Part shown: in pieces, positions 1,874-8,607 of the stretch | Numbering within the stretch: the first letter of the stretch is position 1 | How the letters are laid out: every line of letters starts with the position of its first letter | Source: Eubacteriales bacterium | GTDB lineage: Bacteria > Bacillota > Clostridia > Oscillospirales > Oscillospiraceae | DNA length: 59,663 nucleotides | NCBI GenBank assembly: GCA_030539285.1 | Contig: JAUNSH010000011.1 | Span: 1-59,663 of the forward strand | Reading direction: 5' to 3' | Translations under genes and position numbers: made by a program | Notes under the pieces: generated by a model | Databases searched by the model: none | What the model saw: the letters and a program-made list of their open reading frames with translations, nothing else | Told to the model about the DNA's origin: nothing

Positions 1874-2713
1874 ATGAGAGAACGGGTGCTGACGGAAGAG
1901 CGAATCGGCGCATTTCACGAATATCTGATATTAGAAGAAAAAAGCGGGGCGACTGTGGAGAAATATCTCCGGGATGTCCGCGCTTTTTCTGCCTTTGCGG
2001 GCGGGCAAGGCGTGACGAAGGAGGTGGTCATGGCCTACAAGCAAGATCTTCTGGAAAAGGGTTATGCCATCCGCTCCATCAACTCCATGCTGGCCAGTAT
2101 CCACAGCTTCCTGGATCATCAGGGCTGGCAGGACTGCAAGGTCAAGAGCCTGAAGCTTCAAACTCCGGCTTACTGCGCGGAGGAAAAGGAACTGACCAAG
2201 GCTGAGTATCTTCGCCTGCTGGCGGCGGCAAAGAGCCAACCTCAGCTCAGGCTGATTTTAGAAACCATCTGCGGAACGGGGATACGGGTGTCAGAGCTTC
2301 GCTTTTTCACCGTGGAGAGCGTCAGCCGCGGCGAGATTTCCGTCCGCTGCAAGGGCAAGATCAGAACCATTCTGCTGCCCGGCAAGCTGCGCGGTCTTCT
2401 GCTGGCCTACGCAAAGAAAAGCGGCATCCGCTCCGGTGCGATTTTTGTCACCAGAAGCGGAAAGCCGCTGAATCGAAGCAATATCTGGGCGCAGATGAAA
2501 GCCCTTTGTGAAAAAGCCCGGGTAAAGGCCAGTAAAGTATTCCCTCACAACCTACGCAAACTGTTCGCCCGCACGTTCTACAGCATTGAGAAAGACATTG
2601 CCAAGCTGGCGGACATTCTGGGCCACAGCAGCATCAACACCACCAGAATTTATATCATGACCACCGGGGTGGAGCACCGCCGAAAAATAGAAGGATTGGG
2701 GCTTGTTCTTTAG
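1874..2713 (+). CDS. Tyrosine recombinase, probable inversion recombinase
   Basis: A 279-aa Xer-like tyrosine recombinase. The N-terminal SAM-like DNA-binding domain covers about residues 10-95 and the catalytic domain about 110-275. Catalytic residues are visible: Arg in GTGIRVSEL, Lys in CKGKIR, HNLRK (His-x-x-Arg), LGHSS (His) and the nucleophile Tyr in TTRIYI. AGGAGG lies 7 bases before the ATG. The stop codon is only 5 bases from a 20-bp element repeated in inverse orientation at 2961-2980. That arrangement is typical of recombinases that flip an adjacent promoter segment. Full length and intact. Its role in inversion is inferred from position and site architecture. Plain integrase debris is the main alternative. 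Confidence 0.92.
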   Translation: MRERVLTEERIGAFHEYLILEEKSGATVEKYLRDVRAFSAFAGGQGVTKEVVMAYKQDLLEKGYAIRSINSMLASIHSFLDHQGWQDCKVKSLKLQTPAYCAEEKELTKAEYLRLLAAAKSQPQLRLILETICGTGIRVSELRFFTVESVSRGEISVRCKGKIRTILLPGKLRGLLLAYAKKSGIRSGAIFVTRSGKPLNRSNIWAQMKALCEKARVKASKVFPHNLRKLFARTFYSIEKDIAKLADILGHSSINTTRIYIMTTGVEHRRKIEGLGLVL

Positions 2714-2718
2714 AAACC

Positions 2719-2738
2719 ACATAATCCGCATTATGTTG
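2719..2738 (+). repeat. Left inverted repeat / recombination site
   Basis: ACATAATCCGCATTATGTTG. Internally it has 7-bp arms ACATAAT/ATTATGT around an asymmetric CCGC, the layout of a tyrosine-recombinase core site with two protomer arms and a short crossover region. The asymmetric centre sets the direction, so the two copies are in inverse orientation. Confidence 0.88.
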
Positions 2739-2789
2739 TAGAAAAAGGGAAACGGATGACCACAGATCATCCGAAAGAGCACGCGAGCA

Positions 2790-2840
2790 AAGCCCTTCCG
2801 CTTATTTTTCTTCAAAATGGCGGCAGAAGGGCTTCTTTGT
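2790..2840. terminator. Terminator hairpin inside the invertible segment
   Basis: AAGCCCTTC and GAAGGGCTT pair across a 27-base loop, followed by CTTTGTGTT. It probably ends the recombinase transcript before it reaches the helicase. A weaker GGATGA/TCATCC hairpin precedes it near 2755. Confidence 0.55.
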
Positions 2841-2896
2841 GTTGCTGTTTTACGAAACGGTCGGGGCTTTACCGGATTTTTGGTTACATTTCGGAG

Positions 2897-2925
2897 TTGA
2901 ATACAGCAATGAGGTGTGATAGAAT
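2897..2925 (+). promoter_or_regulatory. Promoter within the invertible segment, facing the helicase
   Basis: TTGAAT (2897-2902), a 17-bp spacer, then TAGAAT (2920-2925). It lies inside the inverted repeats and points right, about 80 bases upstream of the helicase start. I see no comparably good promoter on the other strand of the segment. Confidence 0.78.
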
Positions 2926-2960
2926 GAGTAGTCGTATTGTGGTGAATTTTGGATGTACTG

Positions 2961-2980
2961 CAACATAATGCGGATTATGT
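2961..2980 (-). repeat. Right inverted repeat / recombination site
   Basis: This is the exact reverse complement of 2719-2738. Flanking similarity extends only 2-3 bases further (TTGTAG against TTGCAG), so the repeat is short and precise as expected for a recombinase site rather than a duplicated gene fragment. Confidence 0.88.
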
Positions 2981-3005
2981 TGCGGCAAAGAAAGGAGCGG
3001 CGGGG

Positions 3006-5096
3006 TTGGAGCTTTACGAACACAACCGGGCAGCCTATGAAGCGCTGGTCCCCATGCTGGAACAGCACCGCCGTGCCGCCGTGATCCATCCCACCGGCAC
3101 CGGGAAGAGTTTTGTTGCCTTTCAGCTGATTGAAAATCACCCAGATACCCGGTTCCTGTGGCTGTCTCCCAACGACTATATCTTCGAAAACCAGCGCCAA
3201 AACGCGGGCAGCGAATTTCCCAACGTGGCGTTCATGACCTACACCCGGCTCCTGCGGCTTTCGGAAGCCGAACTGGGGGAGCTTTGGCCGGAGTACATCA
3301 TTCTGGACGAATTTCACCGCTGCGGGGCCTACTGCTGGGGCACCGGGGTGGAGCGGCTGCTGAACCGGTATCCCAAGGCGAAGATCCTTGGCTTGTCGGC
3401 GACTCCTATCCGATACTTAGACAACTGCCGAAATATGGCAGAGGAGCTGTTCACCGTGGACGGGCAGCTCTGCGTTGCCAGCGAAATGACCCTGGGTGAG
3501 GCCATCGTCCGGGGGATCCTGCCCGCACCCCTGTATGTGACCACGGTGTTCCAATACCAGCAGGAGCTGCACCGCTACCAGAAACGCATTGATACGTTGG
3601 TGCCTCAGGGCATGAAGGAACCCAGCCAGCGGTATCTGGACGCTCTGCGCCGGGCGCTGGAGCAGGCCGACGGCTTGGAGAAGGTCTTTGCCCGCTATCT
3701 GAAAAAGGGTGAAAAGTACATTCTTTTCTGCGCCGACTGGGCCCATTTGCAGCAGGTAAAGGAAAAAGTCCCGGAATGGTTCGGAGCAATTGACAGCGCT
3801 CCCCGGTGCTACTGCCTGTATGCGGGCAAACCAGAGACAGAGGAAGAGTACGCGGCATTTTTGGCGGATCAGAGCGAGCACCTGAAGTTGCTGCTGTGCA
3901 TCAACCGGCTCAACGAGGGCGTCCACGTTGCGGATGTCAGCGGCGTGATCCTGTTCCGGCCCACCTCCTCGCCCATTCTGTACAAACAGCAGATCGGCAG
4001 GGCCTTGACCACGGGCACTGCGCAAACACCTTTGATTTTGGACGTGGTCAACAACTTTGACAGCCTGACCAGCATCGGCACCATCCGGGAGGAAATGTCG
4101 GACACCGTCCGCAGGCTGCGCCGGGAGGGTCAGGAACACCTGATCCGGGTAGAGCGGTTTCAAATCGAGGAGCAGGTGGAGGACAGCGCCCGGCTGGTTC
4201 GGGAACTGGAAAACACCTTAAACAACACCTGGGATCTGTGGTACGGCGAAGCCTGCGCCTACTATCTGAAACACGGTGATCTGAAAGTTCCCAAGCGCTA
4301 TGTCACAGAAACCGGGATGCAGCTGGGCATCTGGATCCAGACCCAGCGGGCGGTCTACAACGGCAGCGGCAAAGGGGAACTGTCCCCGGAGCGGGTGGAA
4401 GCCCTGAACGCCATCGGCATGGTGTGGGGGAATCTGGCAGACCAGGCATGGAACGATGCCTGGGAACTGGCTAAGGAATATTATCAGACCAACGGAGATC
4501 TGCTTGTGCCGGACAGCTGCATCATCAGCGGCTTTGACTTGGGCAAGTGGATCACCTACCAACGAAAGCGGAAAAAGGACGGCAAGCTTCCGTCAGACCG
4601 GGCGGCAAAGCTGGAAGAGATCGGTATGGTCTGGGACGCGGCGGATGCTAAATGGAACCGGCGGTATGCGCAGGCAAAGGCATATTTTGAAGAAAACGAA
4701 AACTTGAACATCCCCAGCACCTACCGTACAGAAGACGGCTTCCTGCTGGGGATGTGGGTCATGGGGCTGCGCAAGGCCCGCACCGGCGAGGGAAAAGGCA
4801 AGCAGCTGACACAGAACCAAATCGACAAGCTCACCGCCATTGGCATGGTGTGGGACGGTGCCTTTGATACCCAGTGGCAAAGCGCGTACGCCAAGGCAGA
4901 GGAATATTACCAAGCCAATGGAAACCTGAATATTCCCTATGTCTACTGTACGGAAGACGGCTACAGGCTGGGCCAGTGGCTGGCCCGGCAGAAGAGCGCG
5001 AAAAAGGCCCCGGGGAAAAACAGCAACTGCGTCATGACCCCGGAACGGATCGCGAAATTAGAGAAAATTGGAGTTGTGTGGGACAGCCTGGATTGA
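3006..5096 (+). CDS. DEAD/DEAH-box helicase with four helicase-associated (HA) repeats
   Basis: A 696-aa SF2 helicase. Walker A is PTGTGKS at residues 29-35, Walker B is DEFH at about 101-104, motif III is SATP near 131, and motif VI is QQIGRAL near 328. Residues about 409-694 hold four helicase-associated repeats of about 70 aa, each ending in IGMVW or a close variant (PF03457 type). I start at TTG 3006, because AAAGGAG at 2991-2997 is 8 bases upstream. A TTG at 2949 would place the right inverted repeat inside the protein and has no binding site. The promoter in the adjacent invertible segment should control it. The licD gene follows by 39 bases. Its biological role is unknown; regulation, mobile-element biology or defence are all possible. 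Confidence 0.9.
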   Translation: MELYEHNRAAYEALVPMLEQHRRAAVIHPTGTGKSFVAFQLIENHPDTRFLWLSPNDYIFENQRQNAGSEFPNVAFMTYTRLLRLSEAELGELWPEYIILDEFHRCGAYCWGTGVERLLNRYPKAKILGLSATPIRYLDNCRNMAEELFTVDGQLCVASEMTLGEAIVRGILPAPLYVTTVFQYQQELHRYQKRIDTLVPQGMKEPSQRYLDALRRALEQADGLEKVFARYLKKGEKYILFCADWAHLQQVKEKVPEWFGAIDSAPRCYCLYAGKPETEEEYAAFLADQSEHLKLLLCINRLNEGVHVADVSGVILFRPTSSPILYKQQIGRALTTGTAQTPLILDVVNNFDSLTSIGTIREEMSDTVRRLRREGQEHLIRVERFQIEEQVEDSARLVRELENTLNNTWDLWYGEACAYYLKHGDLKVPKRYVTETGMQLGIWIQTQRAVYNGSGKGELSPERVEALNAIGMVWGNLADQAWNDAWELAKEYYQTNGDLLVPDSCIISGFDLGKWITYQRKRKKDGKLPSDRAAKLEEIGMVWDAADAKWNRRYAQAKAYFEENENLNIPSTYRTEDGFLLGMWVMGLRKARTGEGKGKQLTQNQIDKLTAIGMVWDGAFDTQWQSAYAKAEEYYQANGNLNIPYVYCTEDGYRLGQWLARQKSAKKAPGKNSNCVMTPERIAKLEKIGVVWDSLD

Positions 5097-5135: not shown

Positions 5136-6311
5136 ATGCTTCACTTATCTACCATGGATGCGTTTAAAAATCTCAAATCCGGGGATTTGACGGTCGTGGA
5201 CGATGAAATGCTCAAAAATATCCAGCGGGTACTGCTGGGGATCCTGGACGATATCGTCGCGGTCTGTGAAAAATATGGGATCGTGTATACCCTGGGCGGC
5301 GGCTCGGTGCTGGGCGCGGTCCGGCATCGGGGCTTTATTCCCTGGGACGACGACATTGACATCAATTTTTCCCGACGGGAGTATGAGCGGTTTATCCCCG
5401 CCTTTCAGGAGGAATTCGGGGAGAAATACTGGATCCACACGCCGGAGAATACGGACAACTATGGGCTGCTGTTTGCCCGGGTGCGGCTGAAGGGGACTGT
5501 GCTCAAAACACGGGACGACTTCTGGACGGAGGAATGCGGCGCGTTTATCGACCTGTTCATTCTGGAAAACACTTTTGACAATGCCGCCCTGCGGTGGCTC
5601 CACGGGATGGGGTGCCAGGTGCTGGGACTTCTGCTGTCCTGCCGGAAATTCTACCGGGACAGAAAGTATATGATGGCGCTGGCCCGGAACAACCCGGCGC
5701 TGATGCCCGCCTTCCGTGTCAAGATCGCCCTGGGCTTTTTCACCGCCCTGGGAAGCGTGAATTTCTGGACACGTTTGGCCAACCGGTGGAGTGCCCTGTG
5801 TAAGGATGACAACTCCGTGCTGGTGGCAACCCCGGCGGGCAGAAAGAAATTCTGGGGTGAGCTGTACCGCAGGAGCGATATGCTGGAAGCCGTAAAAATG
5901 GAATTTGAGGGCCGCAAAGTGAACTGCCCCCGAAATTATGAAATGTATCTGACGCATATGTATGGTGATTACATGACGATTCCGCCGGAAGAAGACCGGG
6001 AGCGGCATCCCTTTTTTGGGGAAATATTGTTGCGTAAGGATTCTCCTCCAGCGAGGTTTATGGCCGCAGGGAGACCCCCGGCGCGTTCCGGGAAACGGAC
6101 TACGGCGCGGTGGATATCCTCAACCCCAGAGCCTGCTATCCCAGCGCCAAGCGGGCCGCCGAGACCCTATGCGTATCCTACGGCGCGGAATTTGGGCTGG
6201 ATACGGTCATCGTCCGTCCGGGTCATATCTATGGCCCCACCATCACTGCGGGTGACGACCGGGCATCCGCCCAGTTTACCAGAAACGCGGCGGCCGGTCA
6301 GGACATCGTGA
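5136..6311 (+). CDS. licD: LicD-family nucleotidyltransferase-like protein with an aberrant C-terminus
   Basis: LicD proteins transfer phosphocholine or similar groups to teichoic acids and surface glycans. Residues about 25-300 match the family: GGGSVLGAVRHRGFIPWDDD carries the nucleotidyltransferase GS and metal-binding DDD residues, followed by DIDINFSR and later YEMYLTHMYGDYM. Normal members end soon after a segment like RERHPFFGEI (near residue 300). Here the frame continues about 90 residues in low-complexity Pro/Arg/Ser sequence because it reads the following epimerase remnant out of frame. The catalytic domain is complete, so activity is possible. AGGAG precedes the ATG, and the gene is 39 bases behind the helicase in an apparent operon. 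Confidence 0.82.
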   Translation: MLHLSTMDAFKNLKSGDLTVVDDEMLKNIQRVLLGILDDIVAVCEKYGIVYTLGGGSVLGAVRHRGFIPWDDDIDINFSRREYERFIPAFQEEFGEKYWIHTPENTDNYGLLFARVRLKGTVLKTRDDFWTEECGAFIDLFILENTFDNAALRWLHGMGCQVLGLLLSCRKFYRDRKYMMALARNNPALMPAFRVKIALGFFTALGSVNFWTRLANRWSALCKDDNSVLVATPAGRKKFWGELYRRSDMLEAVKMEFEGRKVNCPRNYEMYLTHMYGDYMTIPPEEDRERHPFFGEILLRKDSPPARFMAAGRPPARSGKRTTARWISSTPEPAIPAPSGPPRPYAYPTARNLGWIRSSSVRVISMAPPSLRVTTGHPPSLPETRRPVRTS

Positions 6312-6649
6312 TGAAGAGCGCCGGTACCCAGCTGCGCTCCTACTGCTATACCCTGGACTGCGCCAGCGCCATTCTGGCCGTCCTGACATCGGGTGAAGCA
6401 GGGCACGCGTACAACATTTCCAACCGGGACAGCGTAGTCTCCATCCGGGACATCGCCGAGGCGCTGGCGGAGCAGGCAGGCACGAAGGTGCTGTTTGAGA
6501 ATCCTTCCGATGTGGAGCGCAGGGGCTACAACCTGATGGACAACTCCAGTCTGGATGCCGCGGAACTGGAAAAGCTGGGCTGGCGCGCCTGCTTTGACCT
6601 GAAGGAAGGCACCGAGAGAACCATACGGTATTTTCGAGGAGCGCTGTAA
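6038..6649 (+). pseudogene. NAD-dependent epimerase/dehydratase remnant, 5' end deleted
   Basis: Directly after a TAA at 6035-6037, the frame opens with FSSSEVYG. It continues with YPSAKRAAETLC (the YxxxK catalytic pair of extended SDRs), then VIVRPGHIYGP, and ends in a typical C-terminal domain at 6649. The Rossmann GxxGxxG nucleotide-binding half (about 110 residues) is missing. The remnant overlaps the licD frame, so a deletion has fused the end of licD to the middle of this gene. A short product from GTG 6110 would lack NAD binding. It was probably a nucleotide-sugar enzyme of the same glycan pathway. Confidence 0.85.
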
Positions 6650-6748: not shown

Positions 6749-6846
6749 AAATGCGCAGCCCAATTTTCGGCCACTGCCACGTAAATGAAAGGTGAGACGG
6801 AAGTTCAGTTTTACTGAAATTACTCCAATTTTAGGAATTGAGATTT

Positions 6847-7635
6847 ATGAAAAAACTTTTTGGTAAGCAAATCAATAAAATTCGAAAGCAATCTTTTCTG
6901 CTCTCGGAGCTTGTAAAGCGGGACTTTAAGCAGAAGTATAAGGGTACCGTAATTGGCATGGGCTGGAGCATACTGTCCCCGCTGCTGACTCTGCTGGTGA
7001 TGCGGCTGGTCTTTACTGAGTTTTTTGGACGTAATACGCCCCATTATACGACATATCTGTTTTGCGGCACCCTCATTTTCTCATACTACAAGGAGTCTAC
7101 TAAGTCGGGAATGAGTTCTTTGCTGGCAAACCAAAGAATCCTCGGAAAGATCAATATTCCCAAATATTTGTTCCTGCTTTCGAGGAATATCTCTTCGCTG
7201 ATCAATTTTGGCCTGACATTGTGCGTTTTCTTTGTTTTTGCCCTCATTGACAATATCACTTTCGGCGTACACTTTTTCGCCCTTTTGTACCCTGTCATCT
7301 GTCTGGTCATATTCAATGTCGGCGTGGGATTGATTTTGTCGGCGCTGCACGTATTCTTCCGGGATATCAATTATTTGTATGACATTTTTACCCTTTTGCT
7401 GCACTACCTTTCCGCGATTTTTTACCGGGTGGACAATTATCCTGAAACAATACAAAGAATATTCCTGCTGAACCCGGTCTATTGCTACATCAAGTATTTC
7501 CGCGTTGTGACCATTGACGGAAATATACCCAGTCTTTTTTATCATCTTCTTTGCGCGTTCTATCCGTTGGCCGCGTTTTCAATTGGAATGTGGATCAACA
7601 AGAAGAATAACAACAAATTTCTGTACTATATGTAA
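6847..7635 (+). CDS. ABC-2 polysaccharide exporter permease (TagG/Wzm type)
   Basis: A 262-aa integral membrane protein with about six hydrophobic segments and the ABC2-type N-terminal region VKRDFKQKYKGTVIGMGWSI. This is typical of TagG, RfbA and Wzm permeases that export teichoic acid or O-antigen-like polymers. I start at ATG 6847 (MKKLFGKQ), since an upstream TTG at 6838 has no spacing for a binding site. The ATPase follows 12 bases later. Together with LicD and the broken epimerase this indicates a surface glycan export locus. The polymer cannot be identified. Confidence 0.88.
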   Translation: MKKLFGKQINKIRKQSFLLSELVKRDFKQKYKGTVIGMGWSILSPLLTLLVMRLVFTEFFGRNTPHYTTYLFCGTLIFSYYKESTKSGMSSLLANQRILGKINIPKYLFLLSRNISSLINFGLTLCVFFVFALIDNITFGVHFFALLYPVICLVIFNVGVGLILSALHVFFRDINYLYDIFTLLLHYLSAIFYRVDNYPETIQRIFLLNPVYCYIKYFRVVTIDGNIPSLFYHLLCAFYPLAAFSIGMWINKKNNNKFLYYM

Positions 7636-7647
7636 GGAGGCAGCAAA

Positions 7648-8607
7648 ATGGCAATTATCAAAGTCAATGATGCCGCGATCCGTTACATTACCGGCGATTT
7701 TAAGGACATTGGTATCAAAGAATATGTCATTCGCCATCTGCAGGGAAAGTACAATGTGACCGAATTTTGGGCAGACCGCCACATCACCTTTGAGTTGGAC
7801 AAGGGCGATATGCTGGGCATCATCGGCAGCAACGGCGCGGGAAAGTCCACCCTGCTGAAGGCCATCAGCGGCATTATGGTGCCCATCGAAGGCTCCATTA
7901 CCGTAAAGGGTCAGATCGCCGCTCTGCTGGAACTGACCGCCGGGTTTGACAACGATCTGACCGTCCGGGAGAATACCTACCTCCGGGGCGCCATGCTGGG
8001 CTATACCCGTCAGTTTATGGACGAAAAATACGAGGAGATCATCACATTCGCGGAGCTTCAGAATTTTCAGGACCGGCCTTTTAAGCAGCTGTCTTCCGGC
8101 ATGAAATCCCGTCTGGCCTTCTCCATTGCCTGTCTGGTCAACCCGGACATCCTGATCCTGGACGAGGTTCTGTCCGTAGGCGACGGCGCTTTCCGCAAAA
8201 AGAGCGGTGACAAAATGCGTCAGATCCTGTCCGGCGGTGTCACTGGAATTTTGGTCTCCCATTCCATCAGTCAGGTTCGGGAGATGTGCAACAAGATCCT
8301 CTGGCTGGATCACGGCAGGCAGATCTATTTCGGAGACGAGACCGAAACCGTCTGCAATGCCTACGAGGAGTTCCTCATCACAAAGCGGCTGCCCGACAAT
8401 TGGGATGACATGGAACGGATGTCCGCCGCCTATTTGGAACGGAAGGAACAGGAGCGGCAGGAAAAGAAGCGGCTGGAAGCCCAGAAGCTGCAAGATCTGA
8501 TAGAATCCGGCAACTCCGATGCGGCGCTGGAGGCGGCACTGTCCGTCATCCGCAGGCAGAAGCCGGAATTGCTGAAAAACTGCGGCGATGAAATGGCGGT
8601 TGTGTAG
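7648..8607 (+). CDS. Polysaccharide ABC exporter ATPase (TagH/Wzt type)
   Basis: The 319-aa cytosolic partner of the preceding permease. Walker A GSNGAGKST lies near residue 65, the signature LSSGMKSRL near 150, Walker B LILDEVLSVGD near 170, and the switch His in VSHS near 207. As in TagH and RfbB, a C-terminal extension follows the nucleotide-binding domain. Here it is a charged, Glu/Arg/Lys-rich probable coiled coil (about residues 255-300). AAGGAGG precedes the ATG by 8 bases. It is the last clearly glycan-related gene of the operon. Confidence 0.9.
   Translation: MAIIKVNDAAIRYITGDFKDIGIKEYVIRHLQGKYNVTEFWADRHITFELDKGDMLGIIGSNGAGKSTLLKAISGIMVPIEGSITVKGQIAALLELTAGFDNDLTVRENTYLRGAMLGYTRQFMDEKYEEIITFAELQNFQDRPFKQLSSGMKSRLAFSIACLVNPDILILDEVLSVGDGAFRKKSGDKMRQILSGGVTGILVSHSISQVREMCNKILWLDHGRQIYFGDETETVCNAYEEFLITKRLPDNWDDMERMSAAYLERKEQERQEKKRLEAQKLQDLIESGNSDAALEAALSVIRRQKPELLKNCGDEMAVV

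Follow-up and report, generated by a model that had tools for sequence, protein, structure and literature searches.

Why should a gene for a DNA helicase stand first behind a promoter that a neighboring recombinase appears able to turn around? The question is raised by a locus at positions 1,874 to 5,096 of a 59,663-nucleotide stretch of DNA from a Eubacteriales bacterium of the Oscillospiraceae (contig JAUNSH010000011.1, assembly GCA_030539285.1), the whole of which we call the window. An earlier note, made from the letters alone, had pointed to a tyrosine recombinase, an invertible promoter, and a helicase with HA repeats at this place. Our analysis indicates that the locus is very probably a phase-variation switch, in which the recombinase flips a promoter cassette and so exerts ON/OFF control over a helicase-led operon for a surface polymer.

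All parts of the core arrangement described in that note were found again. The intact recombinase gene (279 aa; 1874–2713, plus strand; Pfam Phage_integrase, 1.9e-23, with a SAM-like N domain) is followed by the 20-bp repeat ACATAATCCGCATTATGTTG at 2719–2738, whose exact inverse lies at 2961–2980, with 222 bp between the 20-bp repeats. Within them, 7-bp arms indeed surround a 4-bp centre, ACATAAT-CCGC-ATTATGT, at 2719–2736 on the plus strand (site 1, the inverted repeat reaching 2738) and, as the inverse of site 1, at 2963–2980 on the minus strand (site 2, in the inverted repeat 2961–2980). The cassette between the two ACATAAT-N4-ATTATGT sites measures 226 bp, and the site-to-site distance is 244 bp. 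The site can alternatively be read as ACATAA-TNNNNA-TTATGT, that is, as two TTATGT half-sites, which we take to resemble those of dif. With up to two mismatches allowed, the site pattern was never matched in 100 shuffled versions of the window; within one mismatch it occurs nowhere else in the window genome, and a 12-bp separated inverted repeat was present in just 8 of 2000 single-base shuffles of the 500-bp region.

Between the sites lies the promoter TTGAAT-17-TAGAAT, with a TG before the −10 element (2897–2925, plus strand), whose end is 37 bp from site 2 and which faces the helicase gene. That gene is present as the note had claimed, but its start had to be corrected: the listed open reading frame opens at 2949, inside the element, and the best start is the TTG at 3006, near the onset of homology to relatives and 8 nt behind a ribosome binding site read from the sequence (AGGAG, 2993–2997, plus strand). 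With this start only the promoter and the 5′ leader would flip, the coding region lying outside the invertible segment.

The recombinase carries an integrase catalytic domain with the R-K-HxxR-H-Y signature of tyrosine recombinases, and R138, K160, K162, H225, R228, H251, and Y260, which are presumably the catalytic residues, are invariant in 15 aligned sequences. It was rejected as a XerA, XerD, or XerC protein (NCBIfam scores of 134, 109, and 100 versus cut-offs of 220, 330, and 335, respectively) and as a FimB/FimE-type DNA invertase (NF007370, 19.6 versus 221). A search of 60 related genomes returned full-length relatives at 49–70% identity, followed by a gap down to 34% or less. A second locus of this kind in the window genome was rejected, the remaining five matches there being just 24–36% identical. 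The clade delimited in this way occurs in 63 of 391 genomes of the class and in 98 of 340 sampled in the order (E up to 1e-70).

Behind most clade members with following sequence there is an inverted ACATAAT-N4-ATTATGT pair, the centres of which are reverse complements. Under a fixed rule, the pair was found at 88 of 123 recombinase places in the main set, while 14 places had less than 500 bp of contig left and 21 had none; when 18 of these 21 were re-examined, three proved to have a shorter pair, its sites separated by 131 bp. The 123 places leave out L112 and L113 (duplicates), short versions of loci refetched longer, and the control recombinases; they take in three pieces of one broken copy (L063) as well as L218–L220, whose recombinases are 38–40% identical to the queries and none of which has a pair. 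L140 and L151 are one locus, counted twice in the 123 places and in the promoter, pairwise-flip, and pooled orientation counts given below. A further set, drawn from 60 regions hand-picked from recombinase matches in the order, with those already used and most near contig ends passed over, had the pair at 59 of 85 places (11 short, 15 none). At control recombinases the count was 0 of 14. The 14 short contigs of the main set end within 275 bp of the recombinase, as would happen if an assembler ran into a segment present in two orientations or in repeated copies, which may be the cause here.

A few genomes and elements depart from one switch with two sites. L046 and L224 have three sites per element and hence two possible invertible lengths (249/312 and 229/284 bp, respectively), and two genomes hold seven clade recombinase matches each: G042 (L048, L050, L051, L053, and L060–L062), where they lie at or near contig ends, and G072 (L210, L212, and L214–L217).

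Support for flipping of the cassette comes from its orientation in relatives, a comparison that the earlier note had called for. In the window's closest relative (L038, recombinase 84% identical) the cassette is opposite, the window being ON and L038 OFF, and the flanks are colinear. The two elements align with a score of 132 when one is flipped and 47 when it is not, the best of 300 shuffles reaching 74. Among elements whose recombinases are at least 70% identical, the flipped alignment was better in 42 of 45 pairs with opposite promoter direction (by more than 20 in 32 of them) and in 0 of 69 pairs with the same direction. The promoter scored above 95% of shuffles and was clearly oriented in 83 of the 88 main-set elements, of which 60 were OFF and 23 ON. 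The promoter model had been trained on the very 88 elements to which it was then applied, so only the further set (42 OFF, 17 ON) is independent for orientation and promoter distance. Over both sets, OFF elements, with the promoter turned toward the recombinase gene, outnumber ON elements in assemblies by 103 to 41, one locus being counted twice. Together with the site pair linked to the clade, the 42 flipped pairs support the note's claim that flipping of the promoter by the recombinase switches the helicase ON and OFF. In its layout the locus corresponds to a putative phase-variable invertible promoter: inverted sites flank a promoter beside a gene, and both orientations occur between species. 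That inversion takes place in the window strain too, and that the window recombinase catalyzes it, is what these sequence comparisons suggest.

The interior of the cassette follows a common design. Family promoters are near TTGACA-17-TATAAT, often with TG, and are similarly placed. Terminator-like hairpins stand upstream of the promoter in 48 of 85 elements on the plus strand and in 55 of 85 on the minus strand, compared with 13–14% in block shuffles. In the window these are a terminator-like hairpin on the minus strand with TTTCCCTTTT after it (2753–2773) and a second terminator-like hairpin with arms AAGCCCTTC and GAAGGGCTT (2790–2834), for which a similar arm pair is visible when the L038 element is aligned flipped to the window. 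After inversion, the hairpin at 2753–2773 would face read-through from the recombinase gene, and the hairpins would probably shield the operon from the recombinase transcript whichever way the cassette is turned.

In the mechanism we propose, the recombinase would bind both inverted dif-like sites, the 244 bp from site to site being looped, and the synapsed recombinase would invert the cassette. In the ON state, as found in the window, the promoter would transcribe the helicase gene and probably the genes for a LicD-family protein and an exporter behind it. In the OFF state it would point into the 3′ end of the recombinase gene, presumably producing antisense RNA to it, and the cassette hairpins would hold read-through from that gene out of the operon.

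An alternative in which the protein is the integrase of a mobile element, and the repeats are attachment sites or transposon ends unrelated to expression, would be in keeping with the integrase family of the recombinase and with the occurrence of relatives at less than 60% identity in 3 phage and 20 plasmid records. We regard it as extremely improbable: the promoter and hairpins between the sites are conserved, both orientations are met, and sites lying 170–417 bp apart in the 88 main-set elements leave little room for cargo. Assignment as a mobile-element integrase was also ruled out by the model cut-offs and the cassette content. Of four plasmid matches at 46.6–54.4% identity, three have the site pair and the one in Pusillibacter has none.

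If inversion needs helically phased looping, periodic spacing of the sites would be expected. The site-to-site distances gather near 219, 230, 241, 251, 262, 273, and 284 bp, and in the first set they show a periodicity of 11.05 bp (R = 0.44, n = 88). Spacings of 350 bp or more are included in this figure and excluded from most period tests and from the pooled test. When only one element was kept per recombinase cluster, the periodicity was reached in 0 of 1000 jitter sets at 80% clustering and had p = 0.001 at 75% and p = 0.005 at 70%; restricting the 70% test to elements with a called promoter gave p = 0.02. The further set was tested at the preset period and phase, three of its spacings (L223–L225) being already known beforehand, and gave a mean cosine of 0.555 with z 5.98 (n = 58, the 59 minus one spacing of at least 350 bp). 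For the 46 elements whose recombinase is less than 75% identical to any earlier used, z was 4.92, and a free period scan of 6–18 bp over the further set peaked at 10.5. Pooled, the distances give R = 0.50 at 10.82 bp (n = 140), and 79% of the elements fall in the favored half-turn. The distance from the promoter to the downstream site is also phased, with peaks near 27, 37–38, and 47–48 (pooled R = 0.63 at 10.7 bp; z 6.03 in the further set), and the window's promoter distance of 37 falls on this series. Most simply, two nearby sites would have to lie on one face of the helix for synapsis to occur. We found no report of helical phasing in invertons in a literature search of open-licence papers, and the phased spacing of sites and promoter is new as far as searched.

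The gene that the promoter faces encodes a 696-aa SF2 helicase or translocase (3006–5096, plus strand; Pfam HA 2.2e-76, ResIII, DEAD, and Helicase_C) whose SF2 core is followed by four PF03457 (HA) repeats at about 4221–5096; relatives carry 3 to 9. The motifs PTGTGKS, DEFHR, SAT, and QQIGRAL, to which we assign the usual helicase roles, are conserved. An AlphaFold2 model (pLDDT 83.5, pTM 0.56) retrieved RadD, FANCM, DHX36, XPB, and other SF2 cores in Foldseek at low TM-score, which makes the protein translocase-like and is not informative on its purpose. Structure searches and a sequence search of the PDB pointed to SF2 proteins in general and to a single short entry named “putative helicase” (2kta). 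Assignment as the DNA repair helicase RadD was rejected (NF053632, 31 versus a cut-off of 720), and no NusG-like domain (UpxY/LoaP) was among the Pfam matches.

The note had called a helicase as the first gene of such a switch unusual. This did not hold, as the helicase recurs in at least a dozen genomes of several families, which also disposes of it as a one-off, and it is not always first, as seen in L096 and in Ruminococcus albus. Relatives, some distant or partial, occur in 17 of 345 genomes of the order and 8 of 391 of the class, the window's own being counted in both. An inverted repeat of at least 14 bp, with its right arm ending at most 260 bp from the start, precedes 14 of 17 helicases (at least 41% identity and more than 1 kb upstream, window included). 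Of the other three, in L096 one gene separates a site pair from the helicase, and L099 and L103 have no such repeat. Among distant relatives (29–36%) the repeat was found in 1 of 4, only L159. A stricter rule (repeat of at least 18 bp, 1.8 kb upstream available) was satisfied by 11 of 16 helicases and by 4 of 157 other open reading frames of the same loci, all four of which adjoin elements already counted. A literature search of open-licence papers found no report of an association of this helicase with inversion switches.

The switches themselves are of several kinds. A dif-like site or a variant of it, with a clade recombinase, accompanies the helicases of the window, L038, L054, L098, L100, L151, and L096. 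TTAAGT-type palindromes surround another integrase, within the segment, at L152, L154, L155, and L159; L095 has a different repeat around an integrase like that of these four, and L101, L107, L148, and L156 have other repeats and no recombinase identified. In this second design, the TTAAGT-type inverted repeats of 18–26 bp in L152, L154, L155, and L159 lie about 1.3–1.5 kb apart with the tyrosine integrase gene inside. The second integrase kind is a tyrosine recombinase with another N-terminal domain (five scanned), and the one compared with the window recombinase shares only 28% identity over 124 residues.

What follows the helicase is more uniform. The next gene, scanned in 17 cases, matched Bac_transf in 8, DegT in 4, and LicD, UDP-sugar dehydrogenase, GT2, and Polysacc_synt_2 in one each, so that up to 16 of 17 belong to a polysaccharide family (16 if no gene holds two families); in L101 it had no family match. 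At L148, L156, L158, and L159 it is nucleotidyltransferase-like twice and a short-chain dehydrogenase with cytidylyltransferase twice, and the contig of L107 ends inside the helicase. The helicase is a regular member of such operons and would be switched along with the sugar genes, and our best guess, a conjecture, is that as a DNA translocase it aids the expression of its own operon.

Two other roles have to be weighed against this. The helicase might be a restriction- or defense-type enzyme that is co-switched with the capsule to give a combined surface and intracellular phage-defense state. Its core matches ResIII and, weakly, the PADLOC PbeA and type IV restriction enzyme models, in the helicase part only, and its Foldseek matches include SauUSI and EcoR124I HsdR; by Pfam, however, it has no nuclease or methylase domain, its NCBIfam EcoAI score is 41 versus a cut-off of 550, and in most loci the downstream genes scanned are sugar genes, no wider search of the neighbors for defense genes having been made. 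We consider this role unlikely. Alternatively, the helicase could act on the switch itself, setting the rate of inversion or biasing its direction once the operon is ON. DNA translocases can influence site-specific recombination, which fits such a role, as does the fact that the sole promoter found for the helicase faces it in the ON state only. The helicase also stands, however, behind switches whose sites differ and whose recombinases are only distantly related, and most clade recombinases work without it, HA helicases making up 6 of the 76 first genes scanned behind the clade switch; an action on the switch therefore seems distinctly improbable. The other first genes among these 76 include TetR regulators (7), BspA leucine-rich repeat proteins (5), N_methyl type IV pilin-like proteins (5), SPFH/Band_7 proteins (5), and YpsA-like SLOG proteins (4).

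In the window, the operon continues on the plus strand with a gene for a LicD-family protein (5136–6311), which starts 39 nt behind the helicase. Its LicD domain (Pfam, 3e-38, residues 44–277 of 391) ends near 5966, and the rest of the open reading frame overlaps, out of frame, an epimerase gene. The latter (6110–6649) is truncated: only the C-terminal half of a nucleotide-sugar epimerase is left (Pfam Epimerase, profile 136–239 of 240), the N-terminal half being missing. There follow an ABC-2 type permease resembling polysaccharide exporters (6838–7635; Pfam ABC2_membrane, 4.9e-11; NCBIfam Wzm-like, 61.7 bits versus a cut-off of 380) and a TagH/Wzt-like ABC ATPase (7648–8607; Pfam ABC_tran, 1.1e-24; NCBIfam TagH, 172 bits versus a cut-off of 320). 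The earlier suggestion that the LicD and exporter genes are switched together with the helicase is plausible, since no plus-strand promoter-like site was found between 5096 and 7648 and no plus-strand terminator-like site in the gaps between the operon genes, although a strong hairpin of 13 pairs lies inside licD at 5303–5331; the operon presumably extends through these genes. The switch probably controls a cell-surface polymer, which the operon would make or export and which, from the LicD and TagH/Wzt similarities, is possibly phosphocholine-modified or teichoic-acid-like. Switching would then yield cells with and without the polymer.

Elsewhere in the window's own genome (contig C8, L109, 3300–3860) there is a 561-bp, 99.6% identical copy of the helicase 3′ end (window 4523–5083). 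It stands behind an open reading frame that looks transposase-like by eye and is followed by a glycosyltransferase-like one similar to one behind the L038 helicase. The HA-repeat end may anchor the swapping of polysaccharide operons, or the draft genome may mix strains.

Several observations weigh against our interpretation. The window genome is a draft assembly in 98 contigs with 84% completeness, and both orientations were met between species, not within the window strain. A scan of 2600–3100 found one promoter where shuffles give 0.5 ± 0.9, and taken alone the window promoter is within chance; its support comes from conservation in relatives. Among places with enough sequence, 18 of 109 in the main set and 15 of 74 in the further set lack the site pair, and 3 of the 45 opposed pairs do not align better when flipped. 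When a single element represents each 65% cluster, the periodicity disappears (n = 19, p = 0.38), and the window's 244 bp lies 3.4 bp off the helical series, a deviation equalled or exceeded by 15% of the elements. As for the helicase, L105 has HA repeats only, preceded by a switch of the same kind and flanked by an HD-domain gene on one side and genes for Wzz, a ParA-like ATPase, and CpsB on the other, which suggests that the repeats may be the essential part; and in Ruminococcus albus 7 two such helicases stand at the end of a polysaccharide operon instead of at its head, which speaks against any strict requirement for the first position.

The off-phase spacing, the truncated epimerase downstream, and the single orientation given by the assembly of the window strain would also suit a fossil element that no longer flips in the window species and is fixed ON. 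This appears very improbable, as the 20-bp arms and 4-bp centres match perfectly, the recombinase is intact, and the nearest relative, L038, carries the cassette in the opposite direction. Since the clade's recombinases come with one defined site and with a cassette of standard promoter and hairpin design, ON and OFF states can be read directly from assemblies. The helical quantization of the natural elements resembles an imprint, at the scale of whole genomes, of DNA looping during inversion, and the phasing predicts that 5-bp insertions reduce inversion and that 10–11-bp insertions do not.

Several known systems share features with the switch. At the UpxY/UpxZ loci of Bacteroides, an invertible promoter precedes a long surface-polysaccharide operon, the first gene of which is a regulatory factor. 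These capsule promoters resemble the window in having an invertible promoter and a polysaccharide operon led by a gene other than a sugar enzyme; they differ in phylum and site, and their factor is NusG-like where the window has an SF2 HA-repeat helicase. By analogy of position only, we tentatively raise a further possibility, which we ourselves hold to be doubtful: that HA-repeat helicases are co-switched expression factors of Clostridia polysaccharide operons, UpxY counterparts behind several switches, and that the cassettes are selected for helical phasing so that the recombinase loop and RNA polymerase share one DNA face. Were the first part true, a DNA translocase carrying 3 to 9 modular HA repeats would form the basis of the factor; the recurrence of the helicase hints at an as yet unexplained component of the operons for surface polysaccharides in gut Clostridia.

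The FimB/FimE fimS switch combines a tyrosine recombinase, short inverted repeats, and a promoter inside the element. The window is like it in these parts and unlike it by its low score for the NCBIfam DNA-invertase subfamily (19.6 versus 221). RecV of Clostridioides difficile acts on sites away from its own gene. It resembles the window recombinase in inverting a regulatory segment in a Clostridia genome, and its sites and targets differ. Closest are the invertons of Clostridia, whose link to tyrosine recombinases is already published (PMC11892184), the main text of which does not contain the words “helicase,” “helical,” or “phasing.” As described there, inverton group 139 with invertase group 35 comprises 33 invertons, 32 of them of the class Clostridia; nearly all lie near a tyrosine-type recombinase, and their orientation ratios shift in reads from in vitro culture. 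Two given examples have start-to-start repeat distances of 241 and 231 bp, which would fit the helical series; these are arm limits, not site centres, and were left uncounted. Group 139 agrees with the window family in class, spacing, and recombinase adjacency, and on these features the window family probably belongs to it.

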